A stretch of DNA of 64,000 nt, from positions 372,001 to 436,000 of the forward strand of contig DASXEW010000001.1 of assembly GCA_036489885.1 (NCBI GenBank), in the 5' to 3' direction. Under the pieces are notes generated by a model. That model did no database searches and was not told where the DNA came from. It worked only from the letters and a program-made list of their open reading frames with translations. Both the position numbers and the translations under genes were made by a program. This DNA comes from Candidatus Baltobacteraceae bacterium. GTDB taxonomy: Bacteria > Vulcanimicrobiota > Vulcanimicrobiia > Vulcanimicrobiales > Vulcanimicrobiaceae. Shown here in pieces: positions 49,405-55,986 of the stretch (positions are counted from its first letter, which is position 1; every line of letters begins with the position of its first letter).

Positions 49405-50415
49405 TTAGATCCAGGCGTCGGTTGAGCCGGCGTAGACGTTCGTGTAGAGCGTGCTCGGGTTCGGCAACGGTTCTGCTTCGATACGATCCGTCATCTCATT
49501 GACGTGCTGCGCGATCTCGGCGCGAAGCGTGTCGATGGCGTCGCGCGTCAGCACCTTGTGATCGATCAGGTACTGCTCGAAGCGCGGCAGCGGGTCTTGC
49601 GAGCGTTGTTGCTCGACCTCATCGCGCGTGCGGTAGGTCCTGTCGTCGTCGTCCGTCGTGTGCGAGAGAAAGCGATAGCATTTCGCCTCGACCAGGGTCG
49701 GGCCGGCGCCGGCGACTGCCTTGGCGCGCGCGGCGCGCACTGCCGTGTAGACGGCAATCGGATCGAATCCGTCGACCGTCACGCCTTCGATGCCGTATGC
49801 GGTAGCGCGTTCCGCGACGGTCGTGTTGCGCATCTGCTTTGTAATCGGGGTCGAGATCGCCCACTGATTGTTCTCGCACAGCCAGATTACGGGAATAGCG
49901 TGAATCGCGGAAAAATTCACGGCTTCATGCCACTCGCCCTCGCTTGTCGCCCCCTCGCCGAAGGTGCAAAGCGCGACGCGGTCGTTCTCGCCGCGGAACT
50001 TGAAGGCGTACGCGGCGCCGGCGGCGTGCGAGCACTGCGACGCGATGATCGAGGAGATCGACGCGATGCCGCGCGCGCGAGCCGTCGCGTGGTTGATGAT
50101 CGAACGTCCGCCGGTCGTATCGGTCGCGCGCGCGAACTGCGAGCGGAACAAGTCCTCAATCGGCAGGCCGCAGGCAAGCGAGATGCCCGTATTGCGGTAG
50201 TACGGATAGAGCACGTCTTTCCCGCGCTCGAACGCGAGTCCGGCGCCGGCTTGCACCGCCTCGTGCCCTTCGGAACCCATGGCGATTGCGACTTTACCCT
50301 GCCGGTTGAGTTGAAAGCCTCGCGTATCAACTGCGCGCTGCGTCAGCATGTTTCTTAGCAGCGTAACGAGCTGTTCTTCGGACAGCGGGTGCACGGTCGC
50401 GGCTCGGGTGGCCAT
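49405..50415 (-). CDS. 2-oxoacid dehydrogenase E1 component, alpha subunit (branched-chain type)
   Basis: 336 residues. It is the TPP-dependent decarboxylating alpha chain. Landmarks are GSEGHEAVQAGAGLAFERGK, YPYYRNTGISLACGLPIEDL, the TPP/Mg motif TFGEGATSEGEWHEAVNFSA, and ENNQWAIST. The phosphorylation-loop region YRFLSHTTDDDDRTYR is typical of branched-chain E1-alpha. No beta subunit, E2 or E3 adjoins it, so its partners are elsewhere; the E1-alpha/beta pair at 59969-61923 is a different type. ATG 50415 diverges from the TetR gene. Confidence 0.9.
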   Translation of the reverse strand: MATRAATVHPLSEEQLVTLLRNMLTQRAVDTRGFQLNRQGKVAIAMGSEGHEAVQAGAGLAFERGKDVLYPYYRNTGISLACGLPIEDLFRSQFARATDTTGGRSIINHATARARGIASISSIIASQCSHAAGAAYAFKFRGENDRVALCTFGEGATSEGEWHEAVNFSAIHAIPVIWLCENNQWAISTPITKQMRNTTVAERATAYGIEGVTVDGFDPIAVYTAVRAARAKAVAGAGPTLVEAKCYRFLSHTTDDDDRTYRTRDEVEQQRSQDPLPRFEQYLIDHKVLTRDAIDTLRAEIAQHVNEMTDRIEAEPLPNPSTLYTNVYAGSTDAWI

Positions 50416-50476: not shown

Positions 50477-51043
50477 GTGAAGCGCCGTTACGACATCGAT
50501 TCGCTCACGGACGTCGCGCTGCGCGTGTTCGCCCGTAAGGGATACGACGGCGCGTCGATGGACGACGTTGCTGCCGAAGCCGGCATCACCAAGGCCAGCA
50601 TCTATCACCATGTAAGCGGCAAGGAAGAGCTGCTGGCGCGCGGCTTCAATCGTGCGCTCGACGCACTCTTCGCGATCTTTGAGAAGCCGGATGCCACAAC
50701 CGGCACGCCGTCATCGCGCTTGCGCTACATCGTGCGTGGCGTCGCCGAAACCACGACGCGGCACCTTGCAGAGGTCACTGTTCTCTTTCGTGCGCGCGGC
50801 AACTCCGAGGTCGAACGCGAGGCGCTTGAACGTCGCAGGCGATTCGATCGTGCTGTCGCCGATCTCGTCGTGCTCGCACAGGGCGCACACGAAGTGCGTG
50901 CCGACTTGGACGCCGGTCTCGTGACGCGTCTGTGCTTTGGGATGTCGAACTCGATCGTCGAGTGGTATCGCCCGAGCGGCGCGATCGATGCGGCGAAGAT
51001 CGCAGACGCGATCCTCGCCGTGCTCTTTGAAGGTCTTACGTAG
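50477..51043 (+). CDS. TetR/AcrR-family transcriptional regulator
   Basis: 188 residues. The N-terminal helix-turn-helix reads SLTDVALRVFARKGYDGASM, DDVAAEAGITKASIYHHVSG, with KEELL following, a clean TetR_N. The C-terminal ligand domain (VRGVAETTTRHLAEVTVLFR) resembles TetR_C regulators of fatty-acid or phenylacetate-type genes. I chose GTG 50477 because the longer frame from ATG 50414 would overlap the start codon of the E1-alpha gene and adds an unlike leader. It is a candidate binder of the palindrome at 52820-52835. Its stop overlaps the convergent dehydrogenase gene by 8 bases. Confidence 0.88.
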   Translation: MKRRYDIDSLTDVALRVFARKGYDGASMDDVAAEAGITKASIYHHVSGKEELLARGFNRALDALFAIFEKPDATTGTPSSRLRYIVRGVAETTTRHLAEVTVLFRARGNSEVEREALERRRRFDRAVADLVVLAQGAHEVRADLDAGLVTRLCFGMSNSIVEWYRPSGAIDAAKIADAILAVLFEGLT

Positions 51044-52781: not shown

Positions 52782-52812
52782 TTGACGGGTAACACCGGCT
52801 AGGTGCTACAAT
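52782..52812 (+). promoter_or_regulatory. Predicted promoter of the diiron/PaaN operon
   Basis: TTGACG (52782-52787) and TACAAT (52807-52812) are near-consensus boxes with a 19-base spacer. Transcription would start near 52819, at the edge of the palindrome. Confidence 0.6.
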
Positions 52813-52819
52813 CGGCAAA

Positions 52820-52835
52820 CCTACCATTTGGTAGG
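52820..52835. promoter_or_regulatory. Palindromic operator at the start of the diiron/PaaN transcript
   Basis: CCTACCA-TT-TGGTAGG is a perfect 7-bp inverted repeat. It lies between the predicted -10 box and the ATG at 52844 and overlaps the beginning of the GGGAGG ribosome site. The position suits a repressor; the TetR protein at 50477 is the nearest candidate. Confidence 0.65.
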
Positions 52836-52843
52836 GAGGCAGA

Positions 52844-53863
52844 ATGGACATTGTGATACCACCCGGCGGGCTGATCCCCGCCCCCGAGATCCCGCAGCCC
52901 AACATCTATCCCCTTGAGTGGCGCGTCGAGACGCCCAAGCTTGCGGAGTTGTACGAGCGCAGCAAACGCGCACTTTGGAATCCCGCCGATTTTCCTTGGG
53001 ACGATTTGCGCGCCGAAGATTTCACACCCGAGCAACGGCTCGGAATCATGTACTGGTATGCGGTGCTCGCGAATTTCGACGGATCGGGTCCGCCGGTTTT
53101 CGCGCAAGCGACGGTCCACTCATTCGAGCAGCACGCCGAAGACCCGATTCGCAAATGTTTCTTCTCGATAACGCGCGATGAGATGAATCACGAAGAAGTG
53201 TGTCAGCGCGTCATTCAAAAGCTCGTCCCCGGCGGTCCGCTCGATTTCAATCCGAAGACGCCGCTCGAGAACGCCGCCAAGAATAATATCGAGTGGCTCT
53301 ACCACAACGGCGGCCGCTATTGGAAAGGCTACGCCGCGTCGCTCGGCAAGTACCCGCTGTCCGTTTTGTTCACGTCGTTCATGATGGGCGAAGTGGCAGC
53401 TTCGACGCTGTTCTTCGGGATGTCGAAGAAAGCCAGACACCCCGTCTTCCAGCAGATCTTCAAGCGCGTCGGTCAAGACGAAGCGCGGCATCTCGCGATC
53501 TGCCTCGCGATCCTCGAAACCGATTTCCCGGGACTGCGAGAAGAAGATAAGGTCCTCATCACCAAGCAGCTCCGCGCGGGATTCGTCTTTCTCTCGATGA
53601 TTCTGTGGGAACCGCCGCAGCAGTTTTGGGAACTCACCGATTACTTCATGCCGAACCACCGGGTGCTGATTCAGCACGCGCGTGACGCCGGACTCGGGTG
53701 CTTGACGTACGAAGAGCAGGCCGACAATTGGCGCAACGCGCTCGCGAAGGTTCGCGCGATCATCGGCGAGTGGGGTATCGAGTTTCCCGCGATCCCCGAG
53801 CTCGATCTCGACGGCGTCGACGTCGGCGACATCTCAGCCGAAGACATCATCCCCGTATTCTGA
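52844..53863 (+). CDS. Ferritin-like diiron protein, R2-like
   Basis: 339 residues. Two ExxH-type helices are visible, FFSITRDEMNHEEVCQRVIQ and FKRVGQDEARHLAICLAILE. Acidic residues in helices before each (QATVHSFEQHAEDPIRK, SFMMGEVAASTLFFG) complete the E..ExxH..E..ExxH pattern of a four-helix diiron site. Length and order resemble ribonucleotide-reductase-R2-like oxidases and AurF-type N-oxygenases. The exact family is not recognised. Strong GGGAGG ribosome site. It precedes PaaN- and PaaI-like genes by 13 bases, so it may oxygenate an aromatic or acyl-CoA substrate that they process. Confidence 0.75.
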   Translation: MDIVIPPGGLIPAPEIPQPNIYPLEWRVETPKLAELYERSKRALWNPADFPWDDLRAEDFTPEQRLGIMYWYAVLANFDGSGPPVFAQATVHSFEQHAEDPIRKCFFSITRDEMNHEEVCQRVIQKLVPGGPLDFNPKTPLENAAKNNIEWLYHNGGRYWKGYAASLGKYPLSVLFTSFMMGEVAASTLFFGMSKKARHPVFQQIFKRVGQDEARHLAICLAILETDFPGLREEDKVLITKQLRAGFVFLSMILWEPPQQFWELTDYFMPNHRVLIQHARDAGLGCLTYEEQADNWRNALAKVRAIIGEWGIEFPAIPELDLDGVDVGDISAEDIIPVF

Positions 53864-53876
53864 ACGGAGGTTCGCG

Positions 53877-55583
53877 ATGACCATGACGATCGCTCCCTCG
53901 CCTGCCTCGCAGTGGTGGAACGAGCATCAGCCGCTCCTCGATCACGCGCTTGCCGCGATCAAATCGCGTGAGTATTACTCGGCGTATCCGGAGGTGCCGA
54001 GCGGCAAGATCTATGGAGAGAACGCGCAAGCCGAAGGCAAAGCGAAGCTCGAGGGGCGTCTCGGTAAACGCTTTGAACTCGCGCAACCCGGAACGACGGG
54101 ATGGATCGGCGCGGAAAAATCACCCTTCGGGGTGACGATCGGCGTCACGTATCCGCAGATCGATGCGGATCACGTTATCGCCGCCGTGCAGAGCGCCCAG
54201 CGCGATTGGGCGACGGCGTCCGTGCAAAACCGCGTCGGCGTCTGTCTCGAGATCGTCAAGCGCATCAACAAGTCCAGCTTCGAGATGGCATTCGCGACGA
54301 TGTACACGACCGGCCAAGCCTACATGATGGCGTTTCAGGCCGGCGGTCCGCACGCGCAAGATCGTGCGCTCGAAGCGATCGCCTATGCCTACGATGCAAT
54401 GAGCGACATTCCACCGTTCGCCGTGTGGGAGAAACCGCAGAAAAATCAGCCGCTTCGCGTCGAGAAGCGCTTTCGCATCGTCCCGCGCGGAATCGGCCTC
54501 GTGATCGCGAGCTCGACGTTTCCGAATTGGAATTCGTATCCGGGGATGTTCGCGAGCCTCGTCACCGGGAACGCGGTCATTATCAAACCGCATCCGAACG
54601 CGATTTTGCCTCTGGCAATCACCGTCGAGCTCGCTCGCACAACGCTTGCAGAAGCGGGCTACGATCCGAATGTGGTCATCCTCGCCGCAGACGTCCCGGA
54701 TGCACCGATTGCAAAGACGCTGGCGACCCGACCCGAGATCGCGATCGTTGACTTCACCGGCTCGTCGGCATTCGGTGAGTGGCTCGAGAAGAACGCGACG
54801 AATGCGAGCGTTTTCACCGAAAAGGCGGGCGTGAATGCGGTCGTAATCGATTCGACCGACGACCTTGCCGGATTGTCGCGCAATCTTGCGATGGCGCTCT
54901 CGCTCTATTCAGGTCAAATGTGCACCGCGCCGCAAAACATCTTCGTTCCACGCGGCGGGATCAACGTTGGAACTCAGCAGGTCAGCTTTGACGACGTGCT
55001 CGCATCCATCACCAAGGCCGTGGACGATCTGCTCGCGGTTCCGGAGCGGGCCGTCGAAGTGCTCGGTGCGATTGCTTCGGATGGGACGCTCGCGCGCGTC
55101 GACGCACAAGCCAAAGGCGACGGCGTCGCACTTGCATCGAAAGCGCTCGCGCATCCGCAGTTTCCGGACGCACGTATCCGCACGCCGATCGTGGCGCGGC
55201 TCGACGCTGCCGACGAAGAACGCTACAGCGGCGAGATGTTCGGGCCGATCGCGTTTGTAATCGCGACCGATTCGACCGCGCAAAGCCTCGAGCTTGCAAC
55301 CAAGGGCGCACGCGCCTGCGGCGCGATCACGGCCATGCTCTATTCAACAGATCCGGCGATCGTCACCAAGGCCGAGGATTTTGCCGCCGATGCGGGCGTT
55401 TCGCTGGCGATCAATCTGACCGGGGCCCTGCTCGTGAATCAATCGGCCGCCTTCAGCGACTATCACGTCAGCGGCGCCAATCCGGCGGGCAACGCGTCGC
55501 TAACCGACGCGGCATTCGTTGCGGGACGTTTCCGAATCACGCAGACACGGACGGTGGTACCTGGACCCGCAAACGCTAGCTGA
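53877..55583 (+). CDS. paaN: PaaN-type aldehyde dehydrogenase of phenylacetate-like degradation
   Basis: 568 residues. LLDHALAAIKSREYYSAYPE, ELAQPGTTGWIGAEKSPFGV, TTGQAYMMAFQAGGPHAQDR and TFPNWNSYPGMFASLVTGN follow PaaN closely. The aldehyde dehydrogenase nucleophile is in LSLYSGQMCTAPQNIFVPRG, with VFTEKAGVNAVVIDSTDD providing the Glu region. PaaN proteins are thought to oxidise the ring-opened semialdehyde of phenylacetyl-CoA degradation. ACGGAGG lies 6 bases before the ATG. It is co-transcribed with the diiron gene, and the PaaI-like frame begins inside its 3' end. Confidence 0.92.
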   Translation: MTMTIAPSPASQWWNEHQPLLDHALAAIKSREYYSAYPEVPSGKIYGENAQAEGKAKLEGRLGKRFELAQPGTTGWIGAEKSPFGVTIGVTYPQIDADHVIAAVQSAQRDWATASVQNRVGVCLEIVKRINKSSFEMAFATMYTTGQAYMMAFQAGGPHAQDRALEAIAYAYDAMSDIPPFAVWEKPQKNQPLRVEKRFRIVPRGIGLVIASSTFPNWNSYPGMFASLVTGNAVIIKPHPNAILPLAITVELARTTLAEAGYDPNVVILAADVPDAPIAKTLATRPEIAIVDFTGSSAFGEWLEKNATNASVFTEKAGVNAVVIDSTDDLAGLSRNLAMALSLYSGQMCTAPQNIFVPRGGINVGTQQVSFDDVLASITKAVDDLLAVPERAVEVLGAIASDGTLARVDAQAKGDGVALASKALAHPQFPDARIRTPIVARLDAADEERYSGEMFGPIAFVIATDSTAQSLELATKGARACGAITAMLYSTDPAIVTKAEDFAADAGVSLAINLTGALLVNQSAAFSDYHVSGANPAGNASLTDAAFVAGRFRITQTRTVVPGPANAS

Positions 55584-55986
55584 CGCTTCCGCGCAGGCAA
55601 TGTACGCGCGGGACGCCGCTGCGCGCACGCTTGGAATCAGAATAGAAGAAGTCCGGCCTGGTTACGCGCGGCTCTCGATGGTCACCGCGCCCTCGATGCT
55701 CAACGGTCATGCGGTCGTACACGGCGGTTTCATTTTCGCGCTCGCCGACACGGCCTTCGCATACGCGTGCAATTCACGTAACGAATCAAATGTCGCGCTA
55801 AACGCTGCGATCTCGTTCACGGCGCCGGGACGCGTCGATCAGCGTCTCGTGGCAATCGCGCAAGAGCGTTCGCGCGCCGGCCGTACCGGTATCTACGACG
55901 TCGAAGTGCAGAACGAGAACGGCACGGCGATCGCGTTCTTTCGCGGCACGTCGTATCGCATCGAAGGGACCGTTATTCCGTCTTAG
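55519..55986 (+). CDS. paaI: PaaI-type hot-dog thioesterase
   Basis: About 125-155 residues depending on start. RLSMVTAPSMLNGHAVVHGG, FIFALADTAFAYACNSRNES, and RSRAGRTGIYDVEVQNENG match PaaI, with the catalytic Asp in ALADTAF and the Asn in MLNGH. It clears stalled acyl-CoA intermediates of the phenylacetate route. The start is uncertain: TTG 55519 is given, ATG 55600 would drop part of the usual N-terminal helix (ADASAQAMYARDAAARTLG). It overlaps paaN by about 65 bases and the convergent TauE gene by 4 bases. Confidence 0.85.
   Translation: MRDVSESRRHGRWYLDPQTLADASAQAMYARDAAARTLGIRIEEVRPGYARLSMVTAPSMLNGHAVVHGGFIFALADTAFAYACNSRNESNVALNAAISFTAPGRVDQRLVAIAQERSRAGRTGIYDVEVQNENGTAIAFFRGTSYRIEGTVIPS

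Follow-up and report, generated by a model that had tools for sequence, protein, structure and literature searches.

In the described route of phenylacetate degradation, PaaK activates phenylacetate to phenylacetyl-coenzyme A (phenylacetyl-CoA), PaaABCE epoxidises it and PaaG converts the product into oxepin-CoA; the ring is then opened and oxidised by PaaZ, or by a separate hydratase and dehydrogenase, and PaaI removes excess ester (PMC9493321, PMC4498308, PMC9007349). The substrate of PaaZ is oxepin-CoA (PMC9007349, PMC9493321), and the paa genes are repressed by the TetR-type regulator PaaR, which phenylacetyl-CoA releases (PMC9493321, PMC2770484). In a 2026 survey, a context filter kept sequences co-localised with PaaABCDE, and all 825 ligase-bearing proteomes then had both PaaA and PaaC (PMC13186573). 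Oxygenation of the ring by PaaABCE is regarded as the step that defines the pathway and serves as its marker. Here, we consider a locus in a stretch of 64,000 nucleotides (the window) from a Candidatus Baltobacteraceae bacterium (assembly GCA_036489885.1, contig DASXEW010000001.1, positions 372,001 to 436,000), a member of the Vulcanimicrobiota, a little-studied soil phylum, in which a gene for a 339-residue diiron-type protein lies between a TetR-family regulator gene and the genes for PaaN and PaaI.

This protein is probably a stand-alone, single-chain diiron oxygenase of phenylacetyl-CoA that displaces PaaABC(D)E under a PaaR-type TetR regulator. A preliminary description of the window, made from its letters, had guessed that one diiron chain takes the place of PaaABCE, and at the level of comparative genomics this guess is supported well beyond chance, by an either/or distribution of the two oxygenases, a common regulator-operator locus and operons without PaaABCE. 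The arrangement appears to be a variant of the known phenylacetate pathway, with an enzyme family that has no name in the literature and libraries searched. Its likeness to PaaABC(D)E lies in the presumed pathway slot, in the regulator and operator shared with sister genomes, and in a ferritin-like diiron fold. It differs in being one chain, without PaaB or PaaC and without sequence match to PaaA or PaaC, and in its reductase, which is either not dedicated or of another, BenC/MmoC-like type with Fer2 first, followed by FAD and NAD domains. A second parallel is the benzoyl-CoA 2,3-epoxidase BoxB, which is likewise a single-chain diiron aryl-CoA epoxidase with a separate reductase and is described as needing no structural subunit (PMC4498308); however, the window's protein belongs to another family, with no match to the BoxB model TIGR03225 at E≤0.01, and a separate BoxB-like gene exists in the same genome.

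Regulatory slot and distribution of the diiron gene

The palindrome singled out in the preliminary description was recovered as the 16-mer CCTACCATTTGGTAGG, in which two 7-bp arms form a perfect inverted repeat around a 2-bp spacer; the window has no second site of this kind, and 0.05 operator matches with at most three mismatches would be expected there by chance. Among relatives, 12 of 18 genomes have a site within one mismatch of CCKACCNNNNGGTMGG ahead of the diiron gene, at -24 to -58, with a TATACT-like element just before it in most of the 12; in most relatives a -10-like TATACT or TACAAT stands about 7–12 nt ahead of the palindrome. The upstream site carries two mismatches in G053 and G095 (genomes are designated by G numbers, loci by L numbers), and no good match was found there in G046, G048, G146 and G076. 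Related palindromes precede the gene in the actinomycete loci L015 and L018 and in Dactylosporangium (L057); L015 and L057 also have a TetR homologue close by.

The same regulator and operator type occur at canonical paa operons. Copies of tetR that are 59–65% identical to the window's precede the diiron gene in relatives, and copies that are 59–63% identical adjoin paaZ/paaABCDE in G050, G106, G112 and G128. The neighbouring 2-oxoacid dehydrogenase E1 alpha-type gene (E1a) is 60–86% identical in diiron loci and 71–75% identical in L169, L170 and L171. Diiron-type loci follow the order E1a (minus strand), tetR (plus), operator and diiron gene (plus), with inserted genes in some, as in the window. 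The order in G050 is E1a, tetR, CCTACCGTTCGGTAGG, paaZ, paaA, B, C, D, E, paaG, paaI, thiolase and paaK; G128 keeps it up to the thiolase (paaZ-paaABCDE-G-I-J) on the opposite strand, and carries the 16-mer of the window, letter for letter, between tetR and paaZ. An exact-pattern site, CCTACCGTTTGGTAGG, immediately precedes paaA in G111, tetR and a one-mismatch site stand ahead of the paaA cluster in G106, and tetR lies upstream of paaZ-paaAB in G112. In G110, E1a lies beside paa genes, but the stretch read contains no tetR, and a promoter site is lacking. Altogether, tetR is present in four of the six PaaA-type loci read (L133, L170, L171, L173), with an exact-pattern promoter site in three of the six (L170, L171, L172) and a one-mismatch site in L173; eight loci contain three exact operator sites, versus 0.13 after shuffling, where the maximum over 300 shuffles was 2. 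These correspondences point to the window's TetR protein as a PaaR-type regulator of diiron-paaN-paaI, as proposed here. Like PaaR of Burkholderia and Thermus, it would be a TetR repressor of phenylacetate genes whose palindromic operator lies within the core promoter (PMC2770484, PMC9493321), whereas the pattern here is CCKACC-4-GGTMGG and the operators described there are ACCGACCGGTCGGTT and CNAACGNNCGTTNG (PMC9493321). Identity with the Burkholderia PaaR site was ruled out by the different half-site spacing given in that source. A search for a genome-wide regulon with the operator pattern gave no excess over a reversed-pattern control (24 versus 29 sites per strand), and no further targets are claimed.

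The distribution of the two oxygenases was determined in 149 genomes of the phylum, in which the window's genome is designated G000. The diiron gene occurs in 20 of them and PaaA/PaaC in 16, namely at 199 bits or more in 15 genomes and as a 60-bit piece at a contig end, beside PaaZ, in G075. PaaZ was found in 24, in some as pieces only (G053, G076, G078, G131); matches to TIGR02278 covering the dehydrogenase part only (G140, G142, G143, G145) were left out of this count. Within these 24 genomes, PaaA/C is present in 15 and the diiron gene in the other nine, with none carrying both and none neither, an exclusion with a Fisher p of 7.6e-7 when genomes are counted and 5.8e-4 when genera are (7 vs 7). 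No PaaA+PaaC pair was found in any of the 20 diiron genomes of the phylum. PaaN occurs in 11 genomes, never together with PaaZ, and ten of the 11 carry the diiron gene; in the remaining one, G141, paaN runs off the contig end on the side where the diiron gene is expected. One genome, G106, carries PaaABCDE without a full PaaZ. The single 3,508,363-bp contig of G135 encodes the diiron protein, PaaN and PaaI with no match to PaaA/C or PaaZ at the thresholds used, and the absence of PaaA/C is therefore not merely a loss from draft genomes. Where PaaZ and the diiron gene coexist, they share a contig in seven of nine genomes, and in a tree of PaaZ the diiron and PaaABC labels are interleaved; the switch is therefore not one deep split.

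Operons, family and predicted fold

In two metagenome-assembled genomes of the phylum, G046 and G048 (L126 and L127), the diiron gene shares one operon with genes, in this order, for a Fer2-FAD-NAD reductase (BenC/MmoC/PaaE-like), a PaaG-like protein, PaaI, PaaK, 3-oxoadipyl-CoA thiolase and PaaZ, with a PaaX-like gene alongside; in the window it adjoins PaaN and PaaI only. PaaI, PaaK, thiolase and PaaZ of L126 score above their equivalog cut-offs, and the PaaG-like protein reaches 265 bits against a cut-off of 345. No PaaABCE was found in the L126/L127 operon, nor any other oxygenase candidate in that of G046. The diiron protein of this type is 49% identical to the window's. Gene calls in the compared loci came from a codon-model caller, and gene starts there are approximate.

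Genes of the G046/G048 operon are closest to those of Vitreoscilla, with 80% identity for the diiron protein and 68% for PaaZ; compared with the Vitreoscilla plasmid NZ_CP022424.1, the phenylacetate genes of the two loci are 64–80% identical. In L001, L002 and L129, PaaZ is encoded upstream of the diiron gene, and after the diiron gene come an ammonium transporter gene, a PaaK-like ligase gene and paaI; the transporter gene between diiron gene and ligase lies at L001:9236-10648, L002:6215-7627 and L129:11212-12648. A reductase gene adjoins the diiron gene in Variovorax and Vitreoscilla and is contained within one open reading frame (ORF) in Dactylosporangium. This frame (L057:9010-11193, plus strand), directly after the diiron gene, encodes a Fer2-FAD-NAD reductase (residues ~8-340) and then a full branched-chain aminotransferase domain (~353-705), and is either a genuine fusion or the result of a stop codon that was lost.

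A genome scan recovered 199 relatives of the diiron protein in GTDB genomes, the best 80 of which belong to Candidatus Eremiobacterota/WPS-2 (Vulcanimicrobiota) and Actinomycetota; plasmid records add relatives in Variovorax, Vitreoscilla and Nonomuraea. In the diiron tree, all 13 sequences from the window's family fall into a single group (99) close to those of actinomycetes, the G046 and G048 sequences group with Vitreoscilla, and Variovorax stands apart. The libraries searched give the diiron protein family no name, and searches of open-licence PMC papers for another phenylacetyl-CoA oxygenase, or for phenylacetate genes in the phylum, turned up none that names it or describes the arrangement.

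Family models agree with the earlier view that the diiron chain differs in family from PaaABCE, since neither PF05138 nor TIGR02156 was matched in Pfam and NCBIfam. The Pfam matches are Rubrerythrin at 25.1 bits and the p-aminobenzoate N-oxygenase family AurF (PF11583) at 21.1 bits; the latter is a weak resemblance over the ligand region, and AurF identity was ruled out at this score, which is below the gathering score of 29.6. A second diiron-type gene, of the AurF family (60.4 bits, above the gathering score), was noted in one genome at L003:2415-3362, about 5 kb upstream of the diiron gene. The only NCBIfam match is COQ7, at 18 bits against a cut-off of 180. No match to R2, R2lox or Ribonuc_red_sm was found in Pfam or NCBIfam at E≤0.01 (NCBIfam includes an R2lox model), and natural PDB sequences gave no convincing match by sequence or by a 34-row profile. 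All 34 aligned relatives share residues D79, E113, H116, E183, E213 and H216 without exception, at a spacing that we take to be that of R2-type ligand sets; because of this invariance and spacing, they are proposed as metal ligands.

An AlphaFold2 model is all-helical and R2/R2lox/PaaAC-like in fold (predicted local distance difference test 78.7, predicted template modelling score 0.83), and the helical bundle with its carboxylate and ExxH pairs (E113xxH116, E213xxH216), found in both sequence and predicted fold, places the protein in the ferritin-like diiron superfamily. By VIA-align the model is most similar to VlmB (Z 16.9), to a protein that has aldehyde-deformylating oxidase activity (16.8) and to R2lox (15–16), with the PaaAC subcomplex slightly lower (14.6–14.8); the best Foldseek E value is 2.6e-3. 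R2lox, aldehyde-deformylating oxygenase and VlmB share the ferritin-like diiron bundle (Z 15–17, 213–255 residues aligned), although identity is 9–15% among the matches listed and no family model is matched. PaaAC, R2lox, aldehyde-deformylating oxygenase, R2 and VlmB all fall within about 2.5 Z units of each other, and the fold therefore names no nearest relative: structural matches to the predicted model indicate superfamily, not function.

Proposed pathway and competing explanations

The diiron protein is placed at the epoxidation step because of its slot, its switch and its distribution, and its chemistry is inferred. In the proposed sequence, phenylacetate would be activated by the PaaK encoded elsewhere in the window's genome; the diiron enzyme would oxygenate, most likely 1,2-epoxidise, the ring of phenylacetyl-CoA; PaaG/ECH-type crotonases, also encoded elsewhere, would isomerise and open the ring; PaaN would oxidise the aldehyde so formed; and PaaI would unload excess CoA ester. 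The TetR protein, bound to the palindrome just 3' of the -10 element, would block transcription of diiron-paaN-paaI until released by a CoA ester. Electrons may come from the dedicated Fer2-FAD-NAD reductase in some lineages and from another donor in the window's lineage.

A broader evolutionary claim is put forward tentatively, as a genuine possibility: that this unnamed, widespread, single-chain, R2lox-like diiron family is an independently recruited phenylacetyl-CoA epoxidase which displaced PaaABCE (or the reverse) more than once, in situ, under one PaaR switch, and which needs neither PaaB/PaaC nor, in the lineage of the window, a reductase of its own, allowing phenylacetate degradation in PaaA/PaaC-negative genomes. 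If so, a one-chain alternative would explain pathway genomes that are invisible to a PaaABCDE co-localisation filter, a function would be available for a family with at least 199 genome matches, and a simpler enzyme would be at hand for the study and engineering of CoA-dependent ring epoxidation. A cultured species of the phylum exists (PMC9758169), which makes the proposal directly testable.

Several observations weigh against a phenylacetyl-CoA oxygenase of this kind. Related genomes in the distribution counts are not independent observations, and G142 carries the diiron gene and PaaI without PaaZ or PaaN. The operon of G046 and G048 may have been transferred between phyla, or the contigs may be contaminant, and its gene content stands in either case. 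In 17 of the 20 diiron genomes of the phylum, the window's included, nothing matches the G046-type reductase at E≤1e-15, and the two matches in G142 are weak. In the window's genome, the best PaaK scores 478–494 bits against an equivalog cut-off of 646 and the PaaG-like crotonase 242 against 345, and a lone PaaA-like protein is encoded in another cluster (88 bits to TIGR02156, cut-off 280). Outside the phylum, the diiron-reductase pair of Vitreoscilla stands beside an intact paaABCDE. Among 50 diiron-bearing Actinomycetota genomes, 20 have PaaZ and PaaA/C, seven PaaZ only, six PaaA/C only and 17 neither, which gives a full PaaZ in 27 (three dehydrogenase-only matches left out) and PaaA/C in 26, and PaaZ and the diiron gene are dispersed rather than clustered there. 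As a side observation, Actinomadura-type genomes (L140-L145) have a stand-alone PaaZ gene that belongs to no phenylacetate cluster; in G015 and G186 it is a second copy besides that at paaA.

The coexistence with PaaABCDE or PaaA/C in Vitreoscilla and in 26 of the 50 actinomycetes would also fit a single-chain ring oxygenase that hydroxylates, or that acts on a related CoA thioester (hydroxyphenylacetyl-CoA, indoleacetyl-CoA or another arylacetyl-CoA), with PaaZ or PaaN and PaaI working on the analogous product. Variovorax clusters, which hold indolepyruvate oxidoreductase, a CoA ligase-type gene, a MaoC-type dehydratase, thiolase and, in one of two, PaaN, point the same way, as does the title of TIGR02286, hydroxyphenylacetyl-CoA thioesterase. 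This explanation is nevertheless unlikely, given that the diiron gene replaces PaaA/C one for one in phylum genomes that retain PaaZ, whose known substrate is oxepin-CoA (PMC9007349, PMC9493321), and occupies the same regulated slot as paaZABCDE.

An accessory role in the phenylacetate regulon, such as epoxide or aldehyde detoxification or AurF-like N-oxidation beside some other true oxygenase, seems quite improbable. It would accord with Pfam matches restricted to Rubrerythrin and a sub-threshold AurF, and with the lack of a reductase in most of the lineage; yet an accessory role should persist in PaaABC-type genomes of the phylum, none of which has the diiron gene, and the G046 operon offers no other oxygenase candidate. 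That an ordinary ribonucleotide reductase R2 or R2lox lies here by chance is hardly credible: despite its resemblance in fold, R2/R2lox identity was ruled out by the family models and the PDB sequence search, so that the sequence does not group with R2 as the preliminary description had allowed it might, and the gene is strictly linked to phenylacetate genes in the phylum.

Features of the window and its genome

The set of R2-like diiron ORF, PaaN and PaaI named in the preliminary description was borne out by ORF calls and by NCBIfam scores above the equivalog cut-offs for PaaN and PaaI (Table 1). Of its near-consensus promoter, the two hexamers are present, while the spacer falls outside the 16–18 nt that were scanned. 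The start of tetR, a GTG, was assigned from relatives; the exact start of PaaI is uncertain, and its ORF overlaps the 3' end of paaN. E1a and tetR are divergently oriented. The flanking TetR, SDR, 2-hydroxyacid dehydrogenase and TauE genes are all present, the hydroxyacid dehydrogenase and SDR genes between tetR and the palindrome. In relatives, the conserved neighbours are TetR, the E1-alpha gene and PaaI, but not SDR, hydroxyacid dehydrogenase or TauE.

Table 1. Coordinates of features at the diiron locus, in positions of the window
Feature	Position	Strand	Basis or remark
E1a, 2-oxoacid dehydrogenase E1 alpha-type gene	49405..50415	-	PF00676; TIGR03181 322.7 bits, under cut-off 411.35
TetR-family regulator, proposed PaaR-type repressor	50477..51043	+	TetR_N and TetR_C_24
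Promoter-like hexamers TTGACG / TACAAT	52782..52812	+	19-nt spacer; read from sequence
Palindromic operator (predicted) CCTACCA-TT-TGGTAGG	52820..52835		Between -10 and diiron start codon
339-residue ferritin-like diiron-type protein, proposed stand-alone phenylacetyl-CoA oxygenase	52844..53863	+	
PaaN, phenylacetate-degradation aldehyde dehydrogenase	53877..55583	+	TIGR02288 806.6 bits, above cut-off 578.75
PaaI, aryl-acetyl-CoA thioesterase	55519..55986	+	TIGR02286 144.3 bits, above cut-off 118.9

A search of the window's genome for paaABCEGK, which the preliminary description had proposed as a check, found no complete paaABCE: its PaaA_PaaC-type matches are a lone PaaA-like protein of 104 bits and a BoxB-like protein. 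PaaK and PaaG-like genes were found, both below their equivalog cut-offs, together and away from the window (G000:C3, about 1,434,030-1,436,780). Short PaaA-like proteins (84–109 bits) occur in the diiron genomes G000, G093, G140 and G142 and in the diiron-free G107, G108 and G144; with four of 20 diiron genomes and three diiron-free ones, they were ruled out as the replacement of PaaABCE. The one in the window's genome (L101, G000:C3:263000-276000) is encoded beside an SDR gene, a branched-chain amino-acid ABC transporter and an indolepyruvate ferredoxin oxidoreductase. BoxB was likewise rejected as the missing oxygenase: the BoxB-like gene of this genome sits in its own benzoate-type cluster, and PF05138 matches of about 35–48 bits, taken as BoxB-like, are common in phylum genomes without PaaZ. 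That cluster (L105, G000:C1:722000-731000) comprises the BoxB-like gene, a crotonase that is taken from its position to be BoxC-like, a benzoate-CoA ligase-type gene and a divergent PaaX-like regulator gene (253 bits, cut-off 264.55), and is perhaps a benzoyl-CoA route under a PaaX relative. Finally, the lone E1-alpha-type gene of the window has counterparts that often adjoin tetR in diiron-type and PaaABC-type loci alike, for which an arylpyruvate substrate would fit.

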